A stretch of 64,000 bases of DNA from Nitrospira sp. Its GTDB lineage: Bacteria; Nitrospirota; Nitrospiria; Nitrospirales; Nitrospiraceae. This document shows, in pieces, positions 12,922 to 64,000 of the stretch. Position 1 is the stretch's first letter; each line of letters begins with the position of its first letter. The stretch spans positions 674,001 through 738,000 of the forward strand of contig JARFXO010000002.1 in NCBI GenBank assembly GCA_029194665.1, given 5' to 3'. Both the position numbers and the translations under genes were made by a program. The notes under the pieces were generated by a model, which did not search any database, was not told the origin of the DNA, and was given only the letters and a program-made list of their open reading frames with translations.

Positions 12922-13661
12922 GATGAGACCTGTCCTTGCTCCCGTGCAAACTTCAAGAATACCTCTTCCAGGTCCGCCTTCCCGAATCGGTCGACAATGT
13001 CTTGCGCCGTGCCCTCCGCCACGATGCGTCCCCGCTGAAGAAAGATGATGCGATCCGACATTTCTTCCATTTCACGCATGTTATGTGACGTGTAGAGAAT
13101 GCTCAAGCCGGATGATCGCCGCTCTTCTTTCAGCAACGATCTGATCTTGTCGGCGATATCGGGGTCCAAACTCGCCGTCGGCTCATCAAGAAAGAGGATG
13201 CGCGGTTCGGTCAGAAACGCTTTGGCCAAGGTGAGTCTCGTCATCTGACCAGACGACAACTTGCGGGTAATCTTGCCGCGGAACTCCTCCATCTCCAGCT
13301 TCTTGACGATGTCGTTGACGCGCCGAGCGATATCCGAAACCCCGTAGAGCCGCGCCACGACCCATAAATTCTCTTCGACCGTAAGCGACTGGGGCATGGA
13401 GATGTAGGTAGACGAAAAGTTGACCTGCTGCAGGATCTCCTCACGATGAGTCGAGAGATCCAGATCGAACATGTGAATAGAGCCGGCCGTAGGGGTCACG
13501 AGTCCCAACAACATCTGTATGGTAGTGGTTTTCCCGGCTCCGTTCGGCCCCAGCAGCCCCAGGATTTCTCCCGGTCTGATCTCAAAGGACACTCTATCGA
13601 CCGCGGTAAAATCGCCGAACCGCTTGGTCAGGTCCGACGCTTTCAATACTGGAGTAGCCAT
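12918..13661 (-). CDS. ABC transporter ATP-binding protein
   Basis: The protein has 247 residues from ATG 13661. It shows Walker A 'GPNGAGKTTT', the Q-loop, signature 'LSSGQMTRLTLAKA', Walker B 'ILFLDEPTASLD' and the switch 'LYTSHNM'. This is the exporter-type ATPase that partners ABC-2 permeases. Its stop overlaps the next gene (GTGA), so ATPase, small membrane protein and permease form one transcription unit, interrupted only by the fold-back repeat. It lies 15 nt downstream of the NapC-like cytochrome gene. Confidence 0.93.
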   Translation of the reverse strand: MATPVLKASDLTKRFGDFTAVDRVSFEIRPGEILGLLGPNGAGKTTTIQMLLGLVTPTAGSIHMFDLDLSTHREEILQQVNFSSTYISMPQSLTVEENLWVVARLYGVSDIARRVNDIVKKLEMEEFRGKITRKLSSGQMTRLTLAKAFLTEPRILFLDEPTASLDPDIADKIRSLLKEERRSSGLSILYTSHNMREMEEMSDRIIFLQRGRIVAEGTAQDIVDRFGKADLEEVFLKFAREQGQVSS

Positions 13662-13676
13662 CACGTTGACGAACGA

Positions 13677-14387
13677 TTAGTTGAAGAGCAAAGCGCCGCT
13701 GATCTTCTCCGGAATATGGCAGGTCTCGCATTTGCGGTCCAACGTTTTCCCGCCATACTGTGTCTTCCCATCATGGCAGCGAAAACAGTCGTTGAGCGCC
13801 CTTGCGCGGAGGTGAGAGCCTTCCGGATGAGGCGGATACCAAGGTTTGCTGTCGGCCGACACATGTCCGCGTGGAATGACGATGGGATAACCCTTGATGG
13901 GTTCATCATGCACGACACCGGAATGACAGGTCGTACACCCTTCACCCTGTCCACGGGCTCCGAAAGCCTCCATATGCCGGCCATGGCTCATGACCAACCC
14001 CACCTCTTTCACCGGCGACGGAAGATCGCGCGGCGCCGTTTCAGACACACGAAGGATGTGACGATGGCAACCGAGACAGACTCCGGAATCCACTCTTGCC
14101 TTGAGATTGTGCGCATCGGTCGGCGTTCCAAGTACATAAATCGTCGCATCTTTGGCTCCCGCCAAGACCTTGTCGGATAACCAGCCTTGAATCCCAGGCC
14201 TTACATGACAGGCAACACAGGTGACTTCCTTATGGGAAGACTTGGTCCAGCTCTCATAGGCAGGGGCGATGGTGTGGCATCCGGCACAGAATGTCGGCTG
14301 ATCCGTGAGCGGAATCGCAATTCCACCCAGAGCCAAGGCTCCGGCACCAAGGCTCACCACGAGCGTGGCCTTAGACTTCCAGCTCAT
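13677..14387 (-). CDS. Six-haem NapC/NirT-like c-type cytochrome
   Basis: The protein has 236 residues with an N-terminal membrane anchor (about 7-28) and then six CxxCH haem sites: CAGCH, CVACH, CLGCH, CTTCH, CFRCH and CETCH. NapC/NirT proteins carry four haems and pass electrons from quinol to periplasmic reductases; the first part here ('FCAGCHTIAPAYESWTKSSHKEVTCVACH') fits that family, and the extra haems are added towards the C-terminus. It overlaps the end of mobB by 17 nt, so it is cotranscribed with molybdenum-cofactor genes. A role in quinol oxidation for a molybdoenzyme is an inference from this context. Confidence 0.88.
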   Translation of the reverse strand: MSWKSKATLVVSLGAGALALGGIAIPLTDQPTFCAGCHTIAPAYESWTKSSHKEVTCVACHVRPGIQGWLSDKVLAGAKDATIYVLGTPTDAHNLKARVDSGVCLGCHRHILRVSETAPRDLPSPVKEVGLVMSHGRHMEAFGARGQGEGCTTCHSGVVHDEPIKGYPIVIPRGHVSADSKPWYPPHPEGSHLRARALNDCFRCHDGKTQYGGKTLDRKCETCHIPEKISGALLFN

Positions 14388-14889
14388 GCTCCCGGCGTCT
14401 ACGAGGGAACTGCTTGATCAAGAGGTCGGCGACCCCGGCCACATCGTCCAGATGCAGCACGGGCACTGGTAGATCGAGTGGCTTGTCGGAGACGACCGCG
14501 AGAAGGCCGTCGGAAGAGTGCGCAATTTCACCGGGCTGATCTCGAACGATGACGATCTTCGGATACCCTTCGCTTTTCCACCCTTCGGCGATAATGAGAT
14601 CATAGGAGGCGTCCAGGAAACGATCGCGCACTTCCTCCACCTTCAGCTGTTCGGAAACATCGGCAAACAAGGCGAGACTGCCCTTCGCTACCACCACAAC
14701 AGTACCGGCACCGGCACGCTTATGGCGCCAACTATCCTTCCCTTCCGTATCAAGATCAAACCCGTGGCCGGCATGTTTCACCGTCGCCACACGGTATCCG
14801 GCCTTGACCAACTCGGGGATGAGGCGTTCGATCAAGGTTGTTTTACCGCTGTTCGACCGGCCGATAAAGGAAACAATTGGAATGGACAT
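14371..14889 (-). CDS. mobB: Molybdopterin-guanine dinucleotide biosynthesis protein B
   Basis: The protein has 172 residues. The P-loop 'GRSNSGKTTLIERL' and the 'VKHAGHGFDLDTEGKDSWRHKRAGA' block are diagnostic of MobB, a GTP-binding helper of MobA in making bis-MGD cofactor. It lies upstream of the six-haem cytochrome and 152 nt from moeA, both in the same direction. It supports the presence of molybdoenzymes, as expected for a nitrite oxidiser. Confidence 0.95.
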   Translation of the reverse strand: MSIPIVSFIGRSNSGKTTLIERLIPELVKAGYRVATVKHAGHGFDLDTEGKDSWRHKRAGAGTVVVVAKGSLALFADVSEQLKVEEVRDRFLDASYDLIIAEGWKSEGYPKIVIVRDQPGEIAHSSDGLLAVVSDKPLDLPVPVLHLDDVAGVADLLIKQFPRRRREHELEV

Positions 14890-55039: not shown

Positions 55040-55405
55040 ATGCAGCTCCGGTGCAGCCTCAGAATCCATGTACGATATCCAGCCAGCGTGCAGACCGATG
55101 ACAGCGCAGCAGAAGGCATACTCTTCGATCTCTCCGCGACAGGCTGCAGAATGCAAAGCAACGTGGCACTGACTCCTGGAAGCTACCTCGCGCTGCACTT
55201 CGAGGTTCCTGAAACAGAATCTGCTCTTGCTGTGGAAGTCTCAATTGTGCGCTGGCACAAAGCCAACCAGTTCGGCATTGAGTTTCTTCGGTACGCACAG
55301 GGTGATCGTGACAGGATCGCGGATCTCGTCGAAGGTTCCGACGTCCCTGCCATTTCTAATCACGCTGAGCATGAAGACCTTACACTCAGAGCTGTCGCCG
55401 CATAA
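55040..55405 (+). CDS. PilZ domain protein
   Basis: The protein has 121 residues, start ATG with GAGGGTG upstream. 'RCSLRIHVRYPASV' provides the Arg-rich N-terminal loop (RxxxR) and 'LFDLSATGCRMQS' the (D/N)xSxxG motif of PilZ; 'EVSIVRWHKANQFGIEF' is a later strand. PilZ proteins bind cyclic di-GMP and act in motility or polysaccharide control. The IS nest begins 130 nt past its stop. Confidence 0.82.
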   Translation: MQLRCSLRIHVRYPASVQTDDSAAEGILFDLSATGCRMQSNVALTPGSYLALHFEVPETESALAVEVSIVRWHKANQFGIEFLRYAQGDRDRIADLVEGSDVPAISNHAEHEDLTLRAVAA

Positions 55406-56036: not shown

Positions 56037-56096
56037 TGTGCTAGGCTCGAAAAAGTGGACGCCTTCAACCTACAATGAGAGGTCTGGAGGTGTGAG

Positions 56097-56387
56097 ATGG
56101 AACAGGTGCCGCGACAGCAGTATACAAAGGAATTCAGGGAGCAGGCAGTGCGGCTGGTCCTGGAACAGCCGTTGACGATTCCGGAGGCCGCCAGACGCCT
56201 GAGCATGTCGGGCAGGACGCTCGAGGGCTGGGTGTGTCGAGCTCGGCAGGGCCAGCTCGCGACGCTGGGCGAGAGCCGACGGCCCGTGACGGAGCTGGAG
56301 GCCGAGGTGTCTCGGCTCAAGCGCGATCTCGCTGAAGCGCGGATGGAGCGGGACATCCTAAAAAAGCTGTCAGCGGTCATGCAATAA
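56097..56387 (+). pseudogene. IS3 OrfA, truncated at its 3' end by IS21
   Basis: 96 residues as read. 'QYTKEFREQAVRLVLEQPLTIPEAARRLSMSGRTLEGWV' is the helix-turn-helix and 'ELEAEVSRLKRDLAEARMERDILKK' the leucine zipper. The final residues and the TAA at 56385 come from IS21 sequence, so the native end and the frameshift site (the A6G run at 56360-56366) are cut off from orfB. Confidence 0.9.
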
Positions 56388-56441
56388 TCCCCAGATGTGG
56401 TCAATGAATTCTCCCCACCCTCTCACCGAAGGAGGGATGTG

Positions 56442-57776
56442 ATGGAACTTGACGATAGCAAGGAGACAACGATCATACCGTCCCAGGTAGACCACACTCG
56501 GGAGGTATGTATGGTGGATCAAGAGCGGTGGGCGGAGATTCGACGGTTGCGTCATGAAGAGCGGGATCCATTTCAGGGATTGCGCGGCGGTTGGACCTGG
56601 ATCGGAAGACCGTGCGGCGCAGTCTGCAGCAGACGACGTGGCAACCCTATCGCCGAGCGGCGATGACGGAGACGCTGCTGACCGCCCATGCCGACTTTGT
56701 GCGGACCCGTGCGTCGCAGGTTAATTATTCGGCGCGGATTCTCTATCAGGAACTGCGAGCGAGCCACGAGTACATCGGCAGTTATGAGACGGTGAAGCGA
56801 GGGGTGGCGCCGCTGCGTGAGGGTCAGCTGCAGGCGGAGCGGGCCCTCCTCCGCTTTGAGACACCGCCGGGCCAGCAGAGTCAGATTGATTGGGGCCAAG
56901 CCACCGTGCCCTTCCGCGCCGGCCCGACGGTGGTGCACGTGTTCGTGTTGACGTTGGGGTTCAGCCGACGTGGGTTCTATTACGCCTGTGCCGATGAGCG
57001 GCTGGCGCAGTTTCTCGAGGCCCATGAACGGGCTTTTGCGCATTTCGGTGGCCACACGCGAGAGCATCTGTATGACCGACCGCGAACCGTCTGTTATGCG
57101 GATGAGACGGGGCGGCGGCTCTGGAATCCCACCTTCAAAGCCTTCGCCGACTATTGGGGCTTTGAGCCGCGCGTGTGTCGGCCCTATCGGGCCCAGACCA
57201 AGGTAAGGTCGAATCCGGCGTGAAATATCTGAAACGGAACTTTCTGCCGGGACGAACGTTTGTCGATCTGGTGGACTTTCAAACCCAACTTGACGAATGG
57301 ACCGCGACAATTGCCGACCGCCGCATCCATGGCACGACGCATGAGGAGCCACTCGTCCGGTTTGCGCGAGAACGCAACCACCTGGTCCCGCTGGCGGACC
57401 AGCGCGCCTTCCAGCAGGAGGCGCGCGTCTCACGGATCGTGGCCGAGGACTATTTGGTCAGCCTGGCGACGAACCGCTACTCCGTGCCCTTCCGGCTCAT
57501 TGGTCAGCGGGTTGAAGTGCAACGACGGGGGACACGGTCCACATCTTTCACCGTGACCAAGAGATCGCGACGCACCCGGTGCTCCCGGGCCAGCACCAAT
57601 TCCGAATCCAGCCCGAGCACGGCCCTGGAGCCAGTGCGCGTCTCGCCCGCCACCGTCGGTCCACGGTGAGCGATCGGTCCCCTCGCCCCGATGCCTTGCC
57701 GGAGGTCGAAGTGCGGGATCTGGCCTGGTACGAGGCGGTGTGTGAGCGCACGGCGTCGCAGGAGGGGCGGCCATGA
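56442..57776 (+). pseudogene. istA: IstA transposase with three single-base frameshifts
   Basis: The IS21 integrase can be followed through four successive frames: 'VDQERWAEIRRLRHEER' up to about 56565; 'LDRKTVRRSL' to 'VCRPYRAQTK' (about 56575-57200), with 'QSQIDWGQATVPF' holding the first Asp; 'GKVESGVKYLKRNFLPGRTF' to 'QRVEVQRRG' (57205-57530), which supplies the Glu region; and 'LPGQHQFRIQPEHGP' to the TGA at 57774. Each junction is explained by loss of one base, always in a G-run (about 56563, 57202, 57527). Last codon overlaps istB (ATGA). Confidence 0.88.
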
Positions 57777-58555
57777 ACGCGGCGCAACTGGAACGGCTCC
57801 GTGACCAACTCACGCGCCTACGGCTCTTGAAGAGTCGGGAGCGGCTGGAGGCCCTCTTACAAGAAGCGGCCGTCAAGGAGCTGCCCTATGCCGACTTCCT
57901 CGACCAGGTGCTCGGCGAAGAAGTCGCGTCCAAGACCGCGAAGAACATTGCGATGCGGACGAGTTTGGCGCGATTTCCATTCGTCAAGAGTCTGGAGGTC
58001 TTCGACTTCAGCTACCAGCCTTCGTTGGATAAGAAGCAGATTCAGCAGGTGGCGACCTGCCACTTCATCGAGCACGGCGAGAATGTCGTGATCTTGGGGC
58101 CGCCCGGTGTGGGCAAAAGCCACCTGGCCATCGGGCTAGGGCTGCAAGCCATTGCCCAGGGCTATCGGGTGTTGTTCACGACAGCCGCCGCCATGATCGC
58201 TACGCTGACTCGGGCGCTCACGGAGAATCGGCTGGAGGACAAGCTGAAGCTCTATACCATTCCCCGGTTGCTGATCATTGATGAGATCGGCTATCTGCCC
58301 ATTGACCGCACCGGGGCCAACTTGTTCTTTCAGCTCATCTCACGCCGCTATGAGAAGGGGCCGATGATTTTGACCAGTAACCAGAGTTTCGGGGCTTGGG
58401 GCGAGGTGTTTGGCGACCGGGTGCTGGCGACTGCGATCCTGGATCGGGTGCTCCACCACGCGATCACCATCAACATCCGGGGCCATTCCTACCGGCTGAA
58501 GGAGAAACTCAAAGCCGGACTTGTGCGGGTCGAAGAAGCGTCAACGACAACCTAA
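57773..58555 (+). CDS. istB: IstB helper ATPase of IS21
   Basis: The protein has 260 residues and is intact. Walker A 'LGPPGVGKSHLAIGLG', Walker B 'RLLIIDEIGYLPI' and sensor 'PMILTSNQSFGAWGEVFGD' are the IstB/DnaC-like AAA+ motifs. IstB remodels target DNA and activates IstA. ATGA overlap with istA. Without a working IstA this copy could move only with help from another IS21. Confidence 0.95.
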   Translation: MNAAQLERLRDQLTRLRLLKSRERLEALLQEAAVKELPYADFLDQVLGEEVASKTAKNIAMRTSLARFPFVKSLEVFDFSYQPSLDKKQIQQVATCHFIEHGENVVILGPPGVGKSHLAIGLGLQAIAQGYRVLFTTAAAMIATLTRALTENRLEDKLKLYTIPRLLIIDEIGYLPIDRTGANLFFQLISRRYEKGPMILTSNQSFGAWGEVFGDRVLATAILDRVLHHAITINIRGHSYRLKEKLKAGLVRVEEASTTT

Positions 58556-58604
58556 CGGGGTGGGGAATTTTCGATGACCATAACTGGGGCAATTTGGATG
58601 ACCC

Positions 58605-59518
58605 TTGACAAAAAGCCACCGCGTACGTTGCGAAGGCGCAGCTGCCCGGTACGCGCTCATGAGGACGCTGCGTCTCCACTACCCGCTGAGTCTGTTGTGT
58701 CGAGTGCTGGAGGTATCCCGAAGCGGCTACTATGCCTGGCAGCATCGGCGGCCGTCGAAACGCGCCCAGGAGAATGTGCGGCTAGAAGTGGCGATCCAAG
58801 CTGCCCATGTGCGCACCCGGCACACGTATGGCCCGGAGCGCCTCCAGGCGGAATTGCGTGCGGACGGCTTCCCCGCCGGGATTGGGCGCATCAAGCGGCT
58901 ACGCAAGAAACTGAGCCTCCGTTGCAAGCAGGTGCGCCGGTTCACGACCACGACGGATTCGAAGCACGCGCTGCCGGTGGCGGAGAATGTCTTGGCCCAA
59001 ACGTTTGTCGCCACGCGCCCGAACGAGACCTGGGTCACCGATATCACATATATCCCCACGGCAGAAGGGTGGTTGTATGTGGCGGGGATCAAAGATCTGT
59101 ATACCTGTGAGGTAGTCGGGCATGCGATGGAGGGCCGCATGACGACGGACTTGGTAAGGCAGGCGCTGGTCATGGCACTGGGGGCGAAACGTCCGCGCCC
59201 GGGACTGATCCACCACTCCGATCGTGGCTCGCAGTATTGTGCCCAGGACTATCAGGATCAGCTGCGGCAGTTCGGCCTGATCCCGTCCATGAGTCGGAAG
59301 GGGAACTGCTATGACAACGCCCCGATGGAGAGTTTCTGGGGACGCTGAAGAATGAACTGGTGCATCATCGTCGCTACGAAACCCGTGAGCAGGCTCGGCG
59401 CGAGATCACGGAGTATATCGAGCTATTCTCTAACCGGCAGCGGCGACATTCTCGACTCGGGAATTGCTCGCCCGCGGCATTTGCCCAGCAGTGGGCCCGT
59501 CAGCAGTCGGCGGCGTGA
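58605..59518 (+). pseudogene. IS3 OrfB transposase with one frameshift
   Basis: HTH-like region, then an rve core: Asp in 'RPNETWVTDITYIPT', Asp in 'LIHHSDRGSQYC', Glu in 'RKGNCYDNAPMESFWG'. The frame then hits TGA at about 59347, but in the -1 frame it goes on 'TLKNELVHHRRYETREQARREITEYIELFSNRQRRHSRLGNCSPAAFAQQWA' to the TGA at 59516. One G lost from the G-run at 59338-59341 explains the break. The 5' end is fused to IS21 sequence. Confidence 0.88.
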
Positions 59519-59558
59519 GGCTGCGACTCATGGCGTCCACTCTTGACAACCGGGGTCA

Positions 59559-61063: not shown

Positions 61064-61577
61064 TTTTCCTTCTCGGTCAGGCCACGGGTTTTCGTTGCTC
61101 TCGCGAAACATTTTCTTCTTCAGAGCCGGACTATCGGTTTGTTTGACCGCGCCTGGGAGCGATGGGGTGGGCGACGCAATGATTCGGCTGAGACTCCTGA
61201 AAGTGGGCGCTGCTCAGATGCGCAAGACCTGTCGTTCCTGCAGCAGGCCTGGCAAAACGCGGTGGGCGAGGAAGTAGTATCGAAGCGAAAAGCCTCATAA
61301 TCCTCCCTTCGGTATCTGATCCGATACACTGGCGTATCTCTTTCGATACGCTCCGCGCGTGTCACATCGCATCCAGCTCTCTTAAGTTGGCGGAATTTAC
61401 GCATTCTCATCATTTCTCCGTACGGCACCTGGTTTGCTAGGTAGGAGCACGTACACGACCGGCGAGGCCGTCGGTTGTTTCTTTCGACCATGTCAGTCAA
61501 TCCGCCGCATCCTCTGCCGCTTGGCAAGAAGTCGCGTATAGCTTTCGACGACATGATTCTAACTGAGGAGGGCGACT
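61064..61577. other. Non-coding stretch upstream of the giant gene, with paired palindromes
   Basis: 514 nt between the IS nest and the ATG at 61578. A minus-strand frame at 61120-61554 is open but has no recognisable motif and poor composition, so it is not called. Two adjacent palindromes, GTATC-tgatcc-GATAC (61312-61327) and CGTATC-tctttc-GATACG (61333-61350), lie about 230 nt upstream of the giant gene and could be operators. This stretch should hold its promoter. Confidence 0.45.
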
Positions 61578-64000
61578 ATGAGTGCAGCGATGACATTGTT
61601 TCGCTTGAGCGGTGAGGGACAGGACCTCTTTGACGGCTCCGTGAACGGGATTGCCGTCGTAAAGCGCGTGAACGCGAAGGTGCTCAACGGCGACGGAGGC
61701 GTGTCCATTGATCGAGGCTTCGTCGACATGGCGCGGCACAAGGACCTGGACGGCCTGCAATCCTTCACCATCGATGCGGTCATCACCGCAAAAAGCGTGG
61801 GTGGAGCGCGTCAAAACATTGTCGAAGCGCAAACTCCTTCCGTGGCAATGTTCATCGAGGCGAACGGCAAGTTGATGGGGTCAGTGCACACGGCGGCCGG
61901 ATGGGTGGCACTGGACAGCGGCGCCACTCTCATCAAGGCGGGTGTGCCGCAGCGGGTCACGTTCACCCGCGATGGCGCCGGCAAGACCGAATTGCAAATC
62001 GATGCCCGCACGGTGGGAGGCGGAACGGCGCCCGGTGTCATCACGAACGTGGGGACGTCGGGCTTTCGCGTGGGCATGGGAATGGACGGCCGGACGTTCC
62101 CCTTTGCCGGAACCGTCACCGACCTGAGCATTCGCCAGGGGGTCGTGACACAGCAGTTTTTCACGTCGAAACAGCAGGAAGGGCAACGTCTGGAAACTTT
62201 AGTCAAACAAGCAGGCGTGATCAAAAAGATCGCCGTGCGTCTGCTTCCGGATGAAAGCCACGCACGGCTGCAACACGTCAAAGACATCATGCACGCGGCC
62301 GGGGTAAAGGCGCTCAGCGATCTCGATACCTTGCCGGTCCGGCAAGCCACGCCGCTCGCATGCGGCCAAGTTCTCGTCGCTCCCAAAAAGCAACCAACCG
62401 TGAAAGTCAAGTGGAGCGATATTGCAAAACAATTTCGATCGGGCGATCTCACCACGCGCCGTGAAGTGCTCGCTACTCACCTCACGAACCAAAACAGCAC
62501 GGCCTTCTTGAGCAAGCTCCCGGTGCAGCCAACGATCCACCTGCGCGAAACCCCGGGCCCCGAGGATGTGGAGACAAGAGACCTCTCCGCTCCAAGCGAC
62601 CCAGTGACTTCACGCGCTTCCCGGCTTGGCTTGCCGATCCGCATCACGGGCACGACGGTCAATACCACGACTCTCCTGAATTTCACCAACAACAAACTAA
62701 CGGCAATCACGCCGGGATTGCTGGACAAGCTCAAGACCAAGAAGCCCTCGGATTGGCCGACCACCGCCATAGCCATCGCTCAAGTCATGGAGTTGCGGAC
62801 GATTCCGATCGACAGCGCCGTGGTCATCGCGGGCACGCTCGATCTGACTGAGCAGCGATTGGTCGTGGAACCGAACGTCTCGACCCTCTATATCATTGCT
62901 GAGAACGTCATCTGCGGCAACAATGCAGCGATCACCTGGCGCCGACCCGGCGGCTCTACGCCGGCGCGTGCCGACAATCCGGATTTGAACGGCCGGGATT
63001 TCCCCGGCGTGCAAACCAAACACGATTCGCGAGACGGGCTGGACGGCGGGGACGGCATGCCGGGCCAATCCGGGACAGCAGGCGCAGCGGGGCGCCACGC
63101 ACCCAACATTGAAATGTGGGTCAAGAACATGACCGGCCTGCCGAATCTCGACTTTAACGGCGAGGACGGCATTCAGGGGGGGCGCGGCCAGCGCGGCGGT
63201 CGCGGTGGTCGCGGCGGCGGTGGCCATACAGGAAAACGCGTTTGGCTCTTTGGCTGGCATTGCACATCAGAAGGCGGCGACGGAGGTGACGGCGGAAACG
63301 GGGCGCGCGGCGGCGACGGCGGCCGAGGGGGAAACGGCGGGAATGCAGGCACCATTTCAATCGGCGTCTTGACCGGCACCCTCGCGAATACGGTGGTGAA
63401 CAAATCGTTCAAGATCAAGAACCAGGGCGGGCGCAAGGGTCCCGGCGGGTCTGGCGGCGCCGGCGGGTCTGGTGGGAGCGGCGGTCAGAGCGGGAACGGG
63501 GAGACTTGTCATGACGCCAAGAACGGCCATCCCGGCGCGCAAGGCCAGCCAGGCGCGCAAGGCCCTGCCGGGTTCAGCGACGGCAGTGATGCGCAGGTGA
63601 CCTTCTTCGAATTCAGCCAGGCGGCATGGGACGATCTGATGACGCGGCCCTGGATCACCCAATTGAGCCCGACTGACGTATTTCCCGGCGACACCCTTAC
63701 GATCCGTGGCAGCCGTTTCACGACGAACGATCGGGTGATGCTCGGCGCATCAGCGCTCGCTCCAACGGTCAACGCCGATGAGTCGATCTCCATCGCGATT
63801 CCTCTCACAATCACCGGCGGCGAACAACAGATCTTCGTGCGTCGGGCCGACGGAACGGAAAGCAATCGGTTGAATCTTGGGATCAAACCATTGCTCGATG
63901 TGCTGACCGATCCCCTGGCGCAGGGCAGCACCGTCAACCTGACCGGCAGGGCTTTCACGACCGGGGCTACCGTGCTGTTCAACGGTGGAACCATTCCCGC
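61578..64000 (+). CDS. Giant LamG-like / collagen-like / IPT-TIG protein, 3' end beyond window
   Basis: From an ATG with GGAGGG upstream the frame stays open for at least 807 codons to the window edge. Residues about 40-190 look like a LamG/concanavalin domain ('FTIDAVITAKS', 'VTFTRDGAGKTELQID', 'FPFAGTVTDLSIRQG'). Residues about 195-465 are of unknown type. About 470-675 are glycine-rich, with collagen-like GxxGxx runs ('GLDGGDGMPGQSGTAGAAGR', 'GRKGPGGSGGAGGSGGSGGQ', 'GHPGAQGQPGAQGPAG'). From 692 there is an IPT/TIG domain ('LSPTDVFPGDTLTIRGSRF') and a second one begins at about 771. No signal peptide is visible. Every minus-strand frame in this span is a shadow. Confidence 0.82.
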   Translation, partial: MSAAMTLFRLSGEGQDLFDGSVNGIAVVKRVNAKVLNGDGGVSIDRGFVDMARHKDLDGLQSFTIDAVITAKSVGGARQNIVEAQTPSVAMFIEANGKLMGSVHTAAGWVALDSGATLIKAGVPQRVTFTRDGAGKTELQIDARTVGGGTAPGVITNVGTSGFRVGMGMDGRTFPFAGTVTDLSIRQGVVTQQFFTSKQQEGQRLETLVKQAGVIKKIAVRLLPDESHARLQHVKDIMHAAGVKALSDLDTLPVRQATPLACGQVLVAPKKQPTVKVKWSDIAKQFRSGDLTTRREVLATHLTNQNSTAFLSKLPVQPTIHLRETPGPEDVETRDLSAPSDPVTSRASRLGLPIRITGTTVNTTTLLNFTNNKLTAITPGLLDKLKTKKPSDWPTTAIAIAQVMELRTIPIDSAVVIAGTLDLTEQRLVVEPNVSTLYIIAENVICGNNAAITWRRPGGSTPARADNPDLNGRDFPGVQTKHDSRDGLDGGDGMPGQSGTAGAAGRHAPNIEMWVKNMTGLPNLDFNGEDGIQGGRGQRGGRGGRGGGGHTGKRVWLFGWHCTSEGGDGGDGGNGARGGDGGRGGNGGNAGTISIGVLTGTLANTVVNKSFKIKNQGGRKGPGGSGGAGGSGGSGGQSGNGETCHDAKNGHPGAQGQPGAQGPAGFSDGSDAQVTFFEFSQAAWDDLMTRPWITQLSPTDVFPGDTLTIRGSRFTTNDRVMLGASALAPTVNADESISIAIPLTITGGEQQIFVRRADGTESNRLNLGIKPLLDVLTDPLAQGSTVNLTGRAFTTGATVLFNGGTIP

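Follow-up and report, generated by a model that had tools for sequence, protein, structure and literature searches.

Here, we show that the frame that leaves the right edge of the window, a stretch of 64,000 nucleotides (G000:C2:674001-738000) from a host genome of 4.8 Mb that is 99.5% complete, is an intact gene for a protein of 1,346 amino acids, which we read, with a probability of about 0.5, as a horizontally acquired stand-alone multidomain protein acting as an enzyme on a stalk. According to this reading, an N-terminal jelly roll would bind a glycan or surface, a disulfide would hold the strand/GGX domain together as a rigid polyglycine-II bundle, TIG domains would act as spacers, and a C-terminal region with C930, H1031 and Asp or Asn at 1069 would cut or cross-link extracellular material as a cysteine enzyme. 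The chassis would be reused, with an SGNH hydrolase tail in Priestia plasmids, and the protein would leave the cell independently of a Sec signal, or through lysis. Modular lectin/TIG surface-type proteins are already known, but the C-terminal family is uncharacterised, and we found no literature on such a protein. If the reading is correct, it brings to light a carrier architecture whose enzymes can be swapped, together with an uncharacterised enzyme family, and it places a signal-less surface-type protein in both Bacillota and several Gram-negative lineages, with an export route that is directly testable.

Gene and domain architecture

The initial annotation, made from the window alone, described an open frame of at least 2.4 kb that ran off the edge. 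The frame starts at 61578 on the forward strand, occupies 61578-64000 of the window and continues to a stop codon at window-equivalent position 65618 (G000:C2:735578-739618), with no stop or frameshift just past the edge. The annotated 'giant' is indeed a long multidomain protein, although the label is generous for 1,346 amino acids. A ribosome binding site (GAGGAGGG, 61565-61572, forward strand) lies 5 nt ahead of the ATG. Stop codons in frame, a few codons 5' of the start, exclude a longer N terminus and therefore a missed N-terminal signal. At the same base composition, 1,346 stop-free codons are expected by chance with a probability of about 1e-18, and the whole frame is kept in three relatives in end-to-end alignment. 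The gene is real and intact; the complete frame rules out a pseudogene or an edge artefact, and none of the relatives found has a decayed frame.

Residues 1-190 (61578-62147, forward strand) have no Pfam match by sequence, but in the AlphaFold model (pLDDT about 60-83 over most of residues 60-150) they are predicted to fold as a jelly roll. Compared with the PDB, the model of residues 2-189 superposes on jelly rolls of concanavalin type with Z 12-13 and about 140-176 aligned residues. AbnA domain 4, NanB CBM40 and the neurexin/laminin LG domains have this fold in common with residues 1-190 at the same Z, although identity to concanavalin/LamG-type modules is only 7-16%. By predicted fold, the N-terminal part is hence a member of the concanavalin/LamG-like superfamily, and the earlier LamG-like label survives as a statement on the modelled fold but not as a Pfam assignment. 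Clostridial neurotoxin binding domains also appear in the comparison list, among many lectins; they share only the common jelly roll, which implies no relation to toxins. The jelly roll is followed by a conserved helical motif (residues 215-255, PDESHARLQHVKDIM..AGVKALSDLDTL; 62220-62342, forward strand), which in alignment A2 is common to the window protein and the Priestia chassis protein described below. Among relatives the jelly roll is 56% identical, and the linker of residues 311-395 alone is near neutral.

In the strand/GGX domain (residues 396-680; 62763-63617, forward strand), beta strands alternate with glycine-rich runs. Runs of GGX occupy residues 540-549, 566-575, 578-589 and 623-637, in a region of low model confidence, and two cysteines, C562 and C644, lie in the same domain. 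The initial annotation called this segment collagen-like. Collagen-like proteins have long uninterrupted Gly-X-Y repeats that are usually proline-rich. The glycine segment is real, but its repeat pattern rules out collagen: it is mostly GGX, in short runs of at most nine consecutive GXX triplets with strands between them. Repeated GGX runs have been described in glycine-rich PPII (polyglycine-II) bundles, such as those of phage S16 gp38 and the snow flea antifreeze protein (PMC13243192); in such bundles, several GGX segments are packed next to one another. Neither of these has a sequence match to the strand/GGX domain, and from the likeness of the runs we infer that the domain is a candidate polyglycine-II bundle. 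Matches of the GGX residues to PDB sequences (histone acetyltransferase, WASP family and others) reflect composition.

The same domain also occurs on its own, in a 351-residue protein of a Pseudomonadota genome (L042:1222-2277; profile search, E 7e-25). The N terminus of this protein, MSILARSIAFAAMSFVGFQSAYAQ, resembles a Sec signal, which suggests that the strand/GGX domain may be extracytoplasmic. The Priestia protein retains both Cys 562 and Cys 644; in the stand-alone protein the first cysteine has an aligned counterpart and the second lies a few residues off. From these positions we infer that a disulfide may pin the domain.

Two IPT/TIG domains follow, as the initial annotation had proposed. 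The first (residues 691-760; 63648-63857, forward strand; Pfam PF01833) is modelled with a pLDDT of about 90 and reaches a best Z of 13.4 against the PDB, and the second (residues about 775-850; NCBIfam CoaZ_rpt_PGGG, NF058597) starts at 63900 on the same strand and runs past the window edge at 64000. Pfam PF01833 scores 38.3 bits against a gathering score of 20.9, in two stretches within residues 691-850. A match to eCIS_core within the second domain (E 0.16) is below the cut-off and was taken as chance. The best PDB sequence match for the first domain is the extracellular enzyme cyclodextrin glucanotransferase (PDB 4jcm, 1a47), in which a TIG domain likewise sits beside an enzyme; that enzyme has another catalytic domain, and the window protein differs from it in lacking a signal peptide.

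Searches of Pfam, NCBIfam and PDB sequences return nothing for the remaining 490 residues (857-1346), all past the window edge. Residues 857-1130 are the best conserved part of the protein, with a mean identity of 78% and Ka/Ks of 0.09-0.34; the folded domains are under purifying selection, with synonymous sites partly saturated in the Ka/Ks estimate. Three residues, C930 (GFCTSL), H1031 (SHCVMPY) and D1069 (VWDCN; Asn in Dyella), occur in invariant order in all four sequences. Papain- and transglutaminase-like cysteine enzymes carry Cys, His and Asp or Asn in this order, with the Cys at a helix. In the low-confidence model C930 is inside a predicted helix and D1069 at the end of a predicted strand. 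Motif and fold class together suggest that the region is a candidate papain/transglutaminase-like cysteine enzyme, although the motif may be coincidental, given that four sequences about 80% identical keep many residues. The AlphaFold model of the region, with three sequences in the alignment, has a pLDDT of 20-45 over the catalytic candidate and no confidence over about residues 857-1200, and the last 150 or so residues are a moderately confident beta domain.

Relatives and a shared chassis

A scan of genome contigs with short seeds, which detects close relatives only, found three full-length relatives, in Dyella marensis (L004), a proteobacterial MAG (L005) and a Sphingomonadales MAG (L006), with identities to the window protein of 68%, 71% and 66% over the whole length; the three lineages are unlinked. 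Among 295 sampled genomes of the window's phylum, the gene is present in the window's own genome and absent from the other 294. With the chassis profile no further carrier was found among 196 relatives; the C-terminal-region profile returned only itself and two weak partial matches in 398 Pseudomonadota genomes, and the full-length profile only itself and one TIG match in 369 genomes of Dyella's class. No relatives were found in phages, viral contigs or plasmids other than those of Priestia.

The gene was probably acquired horizontally. Across the four loci, blastp and blastn of the 8-kb flanks found no common neighbour gene, immunity gene or flanking DNA, and GC3 varies by carrier (0.75, 0.90, 0.97 and 0.79). 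It therefore seems that the gene moves, or is lost, on its own as one unit. In Dyella marensis, at L004:6663-9686, the neighbours of the orthologue are an XVIPCD type IV effector that binds peptidoglycan and a lipoprotein, the probable immunity partner of the effector.

More distantly, seven Priestia plasmids carry a protein with the same chassis, which consists of the helical motif, the strand/GGX domain and both TIG domains. It is 32% identical to the window protein in A2, with tblastn E-values down to 4e-10. The Priestia protein (WP_286676976.1, SGNH/GDSL hydrolase family) likewise has the two-cysteine form of the strand/GGX domain and no signal peptide, but it lacks the N-terminal jelly roll and has, in place of the Cys/His/Asp region, a terminal SGNH hydrolase domain in which GDS, GGIND and HPN motifs occur; this domain scores below the curated Pfam cut-off, and the record is annotated SGNH/GDSL. 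No spore promoter (sigma-K -10, CATANNNTA) is found 5' of the Priestia gene at that place. Because the Priestia version of the chassis has an SGNH hydrolase as its tail, the 'giant adhesin' probably serves as a carrier of exchangeable enzyme tails. A broader proposal is that of a mobile single-gene family built on one chassis of helical motif, polyglycine-II domain and two TIG domains. Its members would exchange their C-terminal enzymes, one of which would be a cysteine enzyme not yet described, and would share a Sec-signal-independent exit from monoderm and diderm cells, with the helical motif as a possible export tag; we consider this quite doubtful as a whole.

Proposed export and alternative explanations

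The initial annotation noted that the protein has no signal peptide, and this is borne out: no 19-residue window exceeds a hydropathy of 0.6 in the N-terminal 60 residues, and in-frame stops lie shortly 5' of the ATG. No Sec signal peptide is found in any other member, including the monoderm Priestia counterpart. A type I or type IX route and adjacent export genes, both raised earlier, find no backing. Neither an anchor nor a conserved adjacent export gene is present in the gene or its neighbours at the loci, and Pfam and NCBIfam searches return no RTX repeats or C-terminal sorting domain of these systems, bearing in mind that T1SS signals can be cryptic. In addition, a signal-less chassis relative in a monoderm argues against a route restricted to Gram-negative cells. 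A T6SS route is ruled out for the host, in which the 99.5% complete genome has no sheath VipB and one Hcp only. Judged by its domain types, the protein would be exported by a Sec-signal-independent route or released on lysis.

The protein was put forward as an adhesin or matrix component. It is indeed intact and multidomain, of an extracellular type and lacking a Sec signal, and a lectin-like fold, TIG domains and a glycine-rich stalk would all suit such a role, as would the exopolysaccharide-type functions among genes further downstream. However, the directly downstream genes are old backbone outside the island that carries the gene, the Priestia counterpart is an SGNH hydrolase, and the most conserved stretch lies past the window in the enzyme-like C-terminal region, with its invariant Cys, His and Asp or Asn. 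The protein is hence probably not mainly an adhesin or fibre, and a plain adhesin or matrix component with a structural rather than enzymatic C-terminal region is unlikely. A frame that is decaying or misassembled is extremely improbable. One-base deletions do occur in G runs of the adjoining IS copies, but the gene keeps an open frame across all 1,346 codons, relatives in three other genomes can be aligned with it from end to end, and the full-length frame already refutes this reading.

Two further alternatives concern the route out of the cell. The protein could be a cytosolic, signal-less cargo or effector that a contractile injection system packs into its phage-tail-like particle and then injects or releases. 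The host genome does have a phage-tail-like contractile locus (G000:C1:472000-491500, L047) with two sheaths, a gp19 tube, gp25, a spike OB domain, a gpD hub, two baseplate J proteins and an AAA ATPase with a winged-helix domain, and none of the members has a signal peptide. The Dyella gene, moreover, is divergent beside the XVIPCD effector and its probable lipoprotein partner, and the equivalent slot in the relative G200 holds an Hcp gene. Set against this, the contractile locus is on another contig, unlinked to the gene, no such sheath was found in the Sphingomonadales genome, the host has no VipB and no neighbour is conserved between loci, which leaves a contractile cargo distinctly unlikely. 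We judge it very improbable that the protein stays in the cytosol or is set free by lysis, with no export system devoted to it, as a store or an inner-cell scaffold might be. This would account for the missing signal, anchor and linked export gene, but every domain type that can be recognised is one usual in exported proteins, the N terminus of the stand-alone strand/GGX relative resembles a signal, and the two strand/GGX cysteines are kept across phyla. The enzyme on a stalk remains our preferred reading.

Genomic context

The island starts at 55405, fills the window to 64000 and has its right boundary at window-equivalent position about 66069, with other or shorter DNA in syntenic relatives. 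Downstream, the DNA matches genus relatives from a few hundred bases past the gene onward. In the close syntenic relative G507, the backbone flanks that match 55335 and 66069 are only 1.6 kb apart and the gene is absent, whereas the slot measures 7.6 kb in G200, with other genes that include Hcp and a PIN-like toxin, and about 3 kb in G494. The gene therefore belongs to about 10.7 kb of strain-specific DNA, an island within a variable slot. The G200 slot (L031:7312-14563), a variable hot spot, holds a GIY-YIG-like frame and a CBM-bearing protein in addition to the Hcp gene and the PIN-like toxin.

The IS hot spot reported in the initial annotation is present beside the gene. On the left side of the island, an IS3-type element (56037-59558, forward strand) is split by an IS21-type element (56368-58610), with matches to HTH_Tnp_1, rve and IstB and with intact copies elsewhere on the contig; a decayed transposase-like frame lies on the same side. 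Taken from 56365 to 58610, the IS21-type element is lodged between the two frames of the IS3-type element, with an apparent 4-base target duplication, and a copy 99.7% identical is found in the relative G512. Compared with intact copies on the same contig (L003:9788-12033 and 13173-14447), the IS21-type (56368-58610) and IS3-type (58610-59558) copies are missing four bases, all of which fall in G runs, and have zero substitutions in about 3.2 kb. By this pattern, the missing bases look like homopolymer assembly errors rather than decay.
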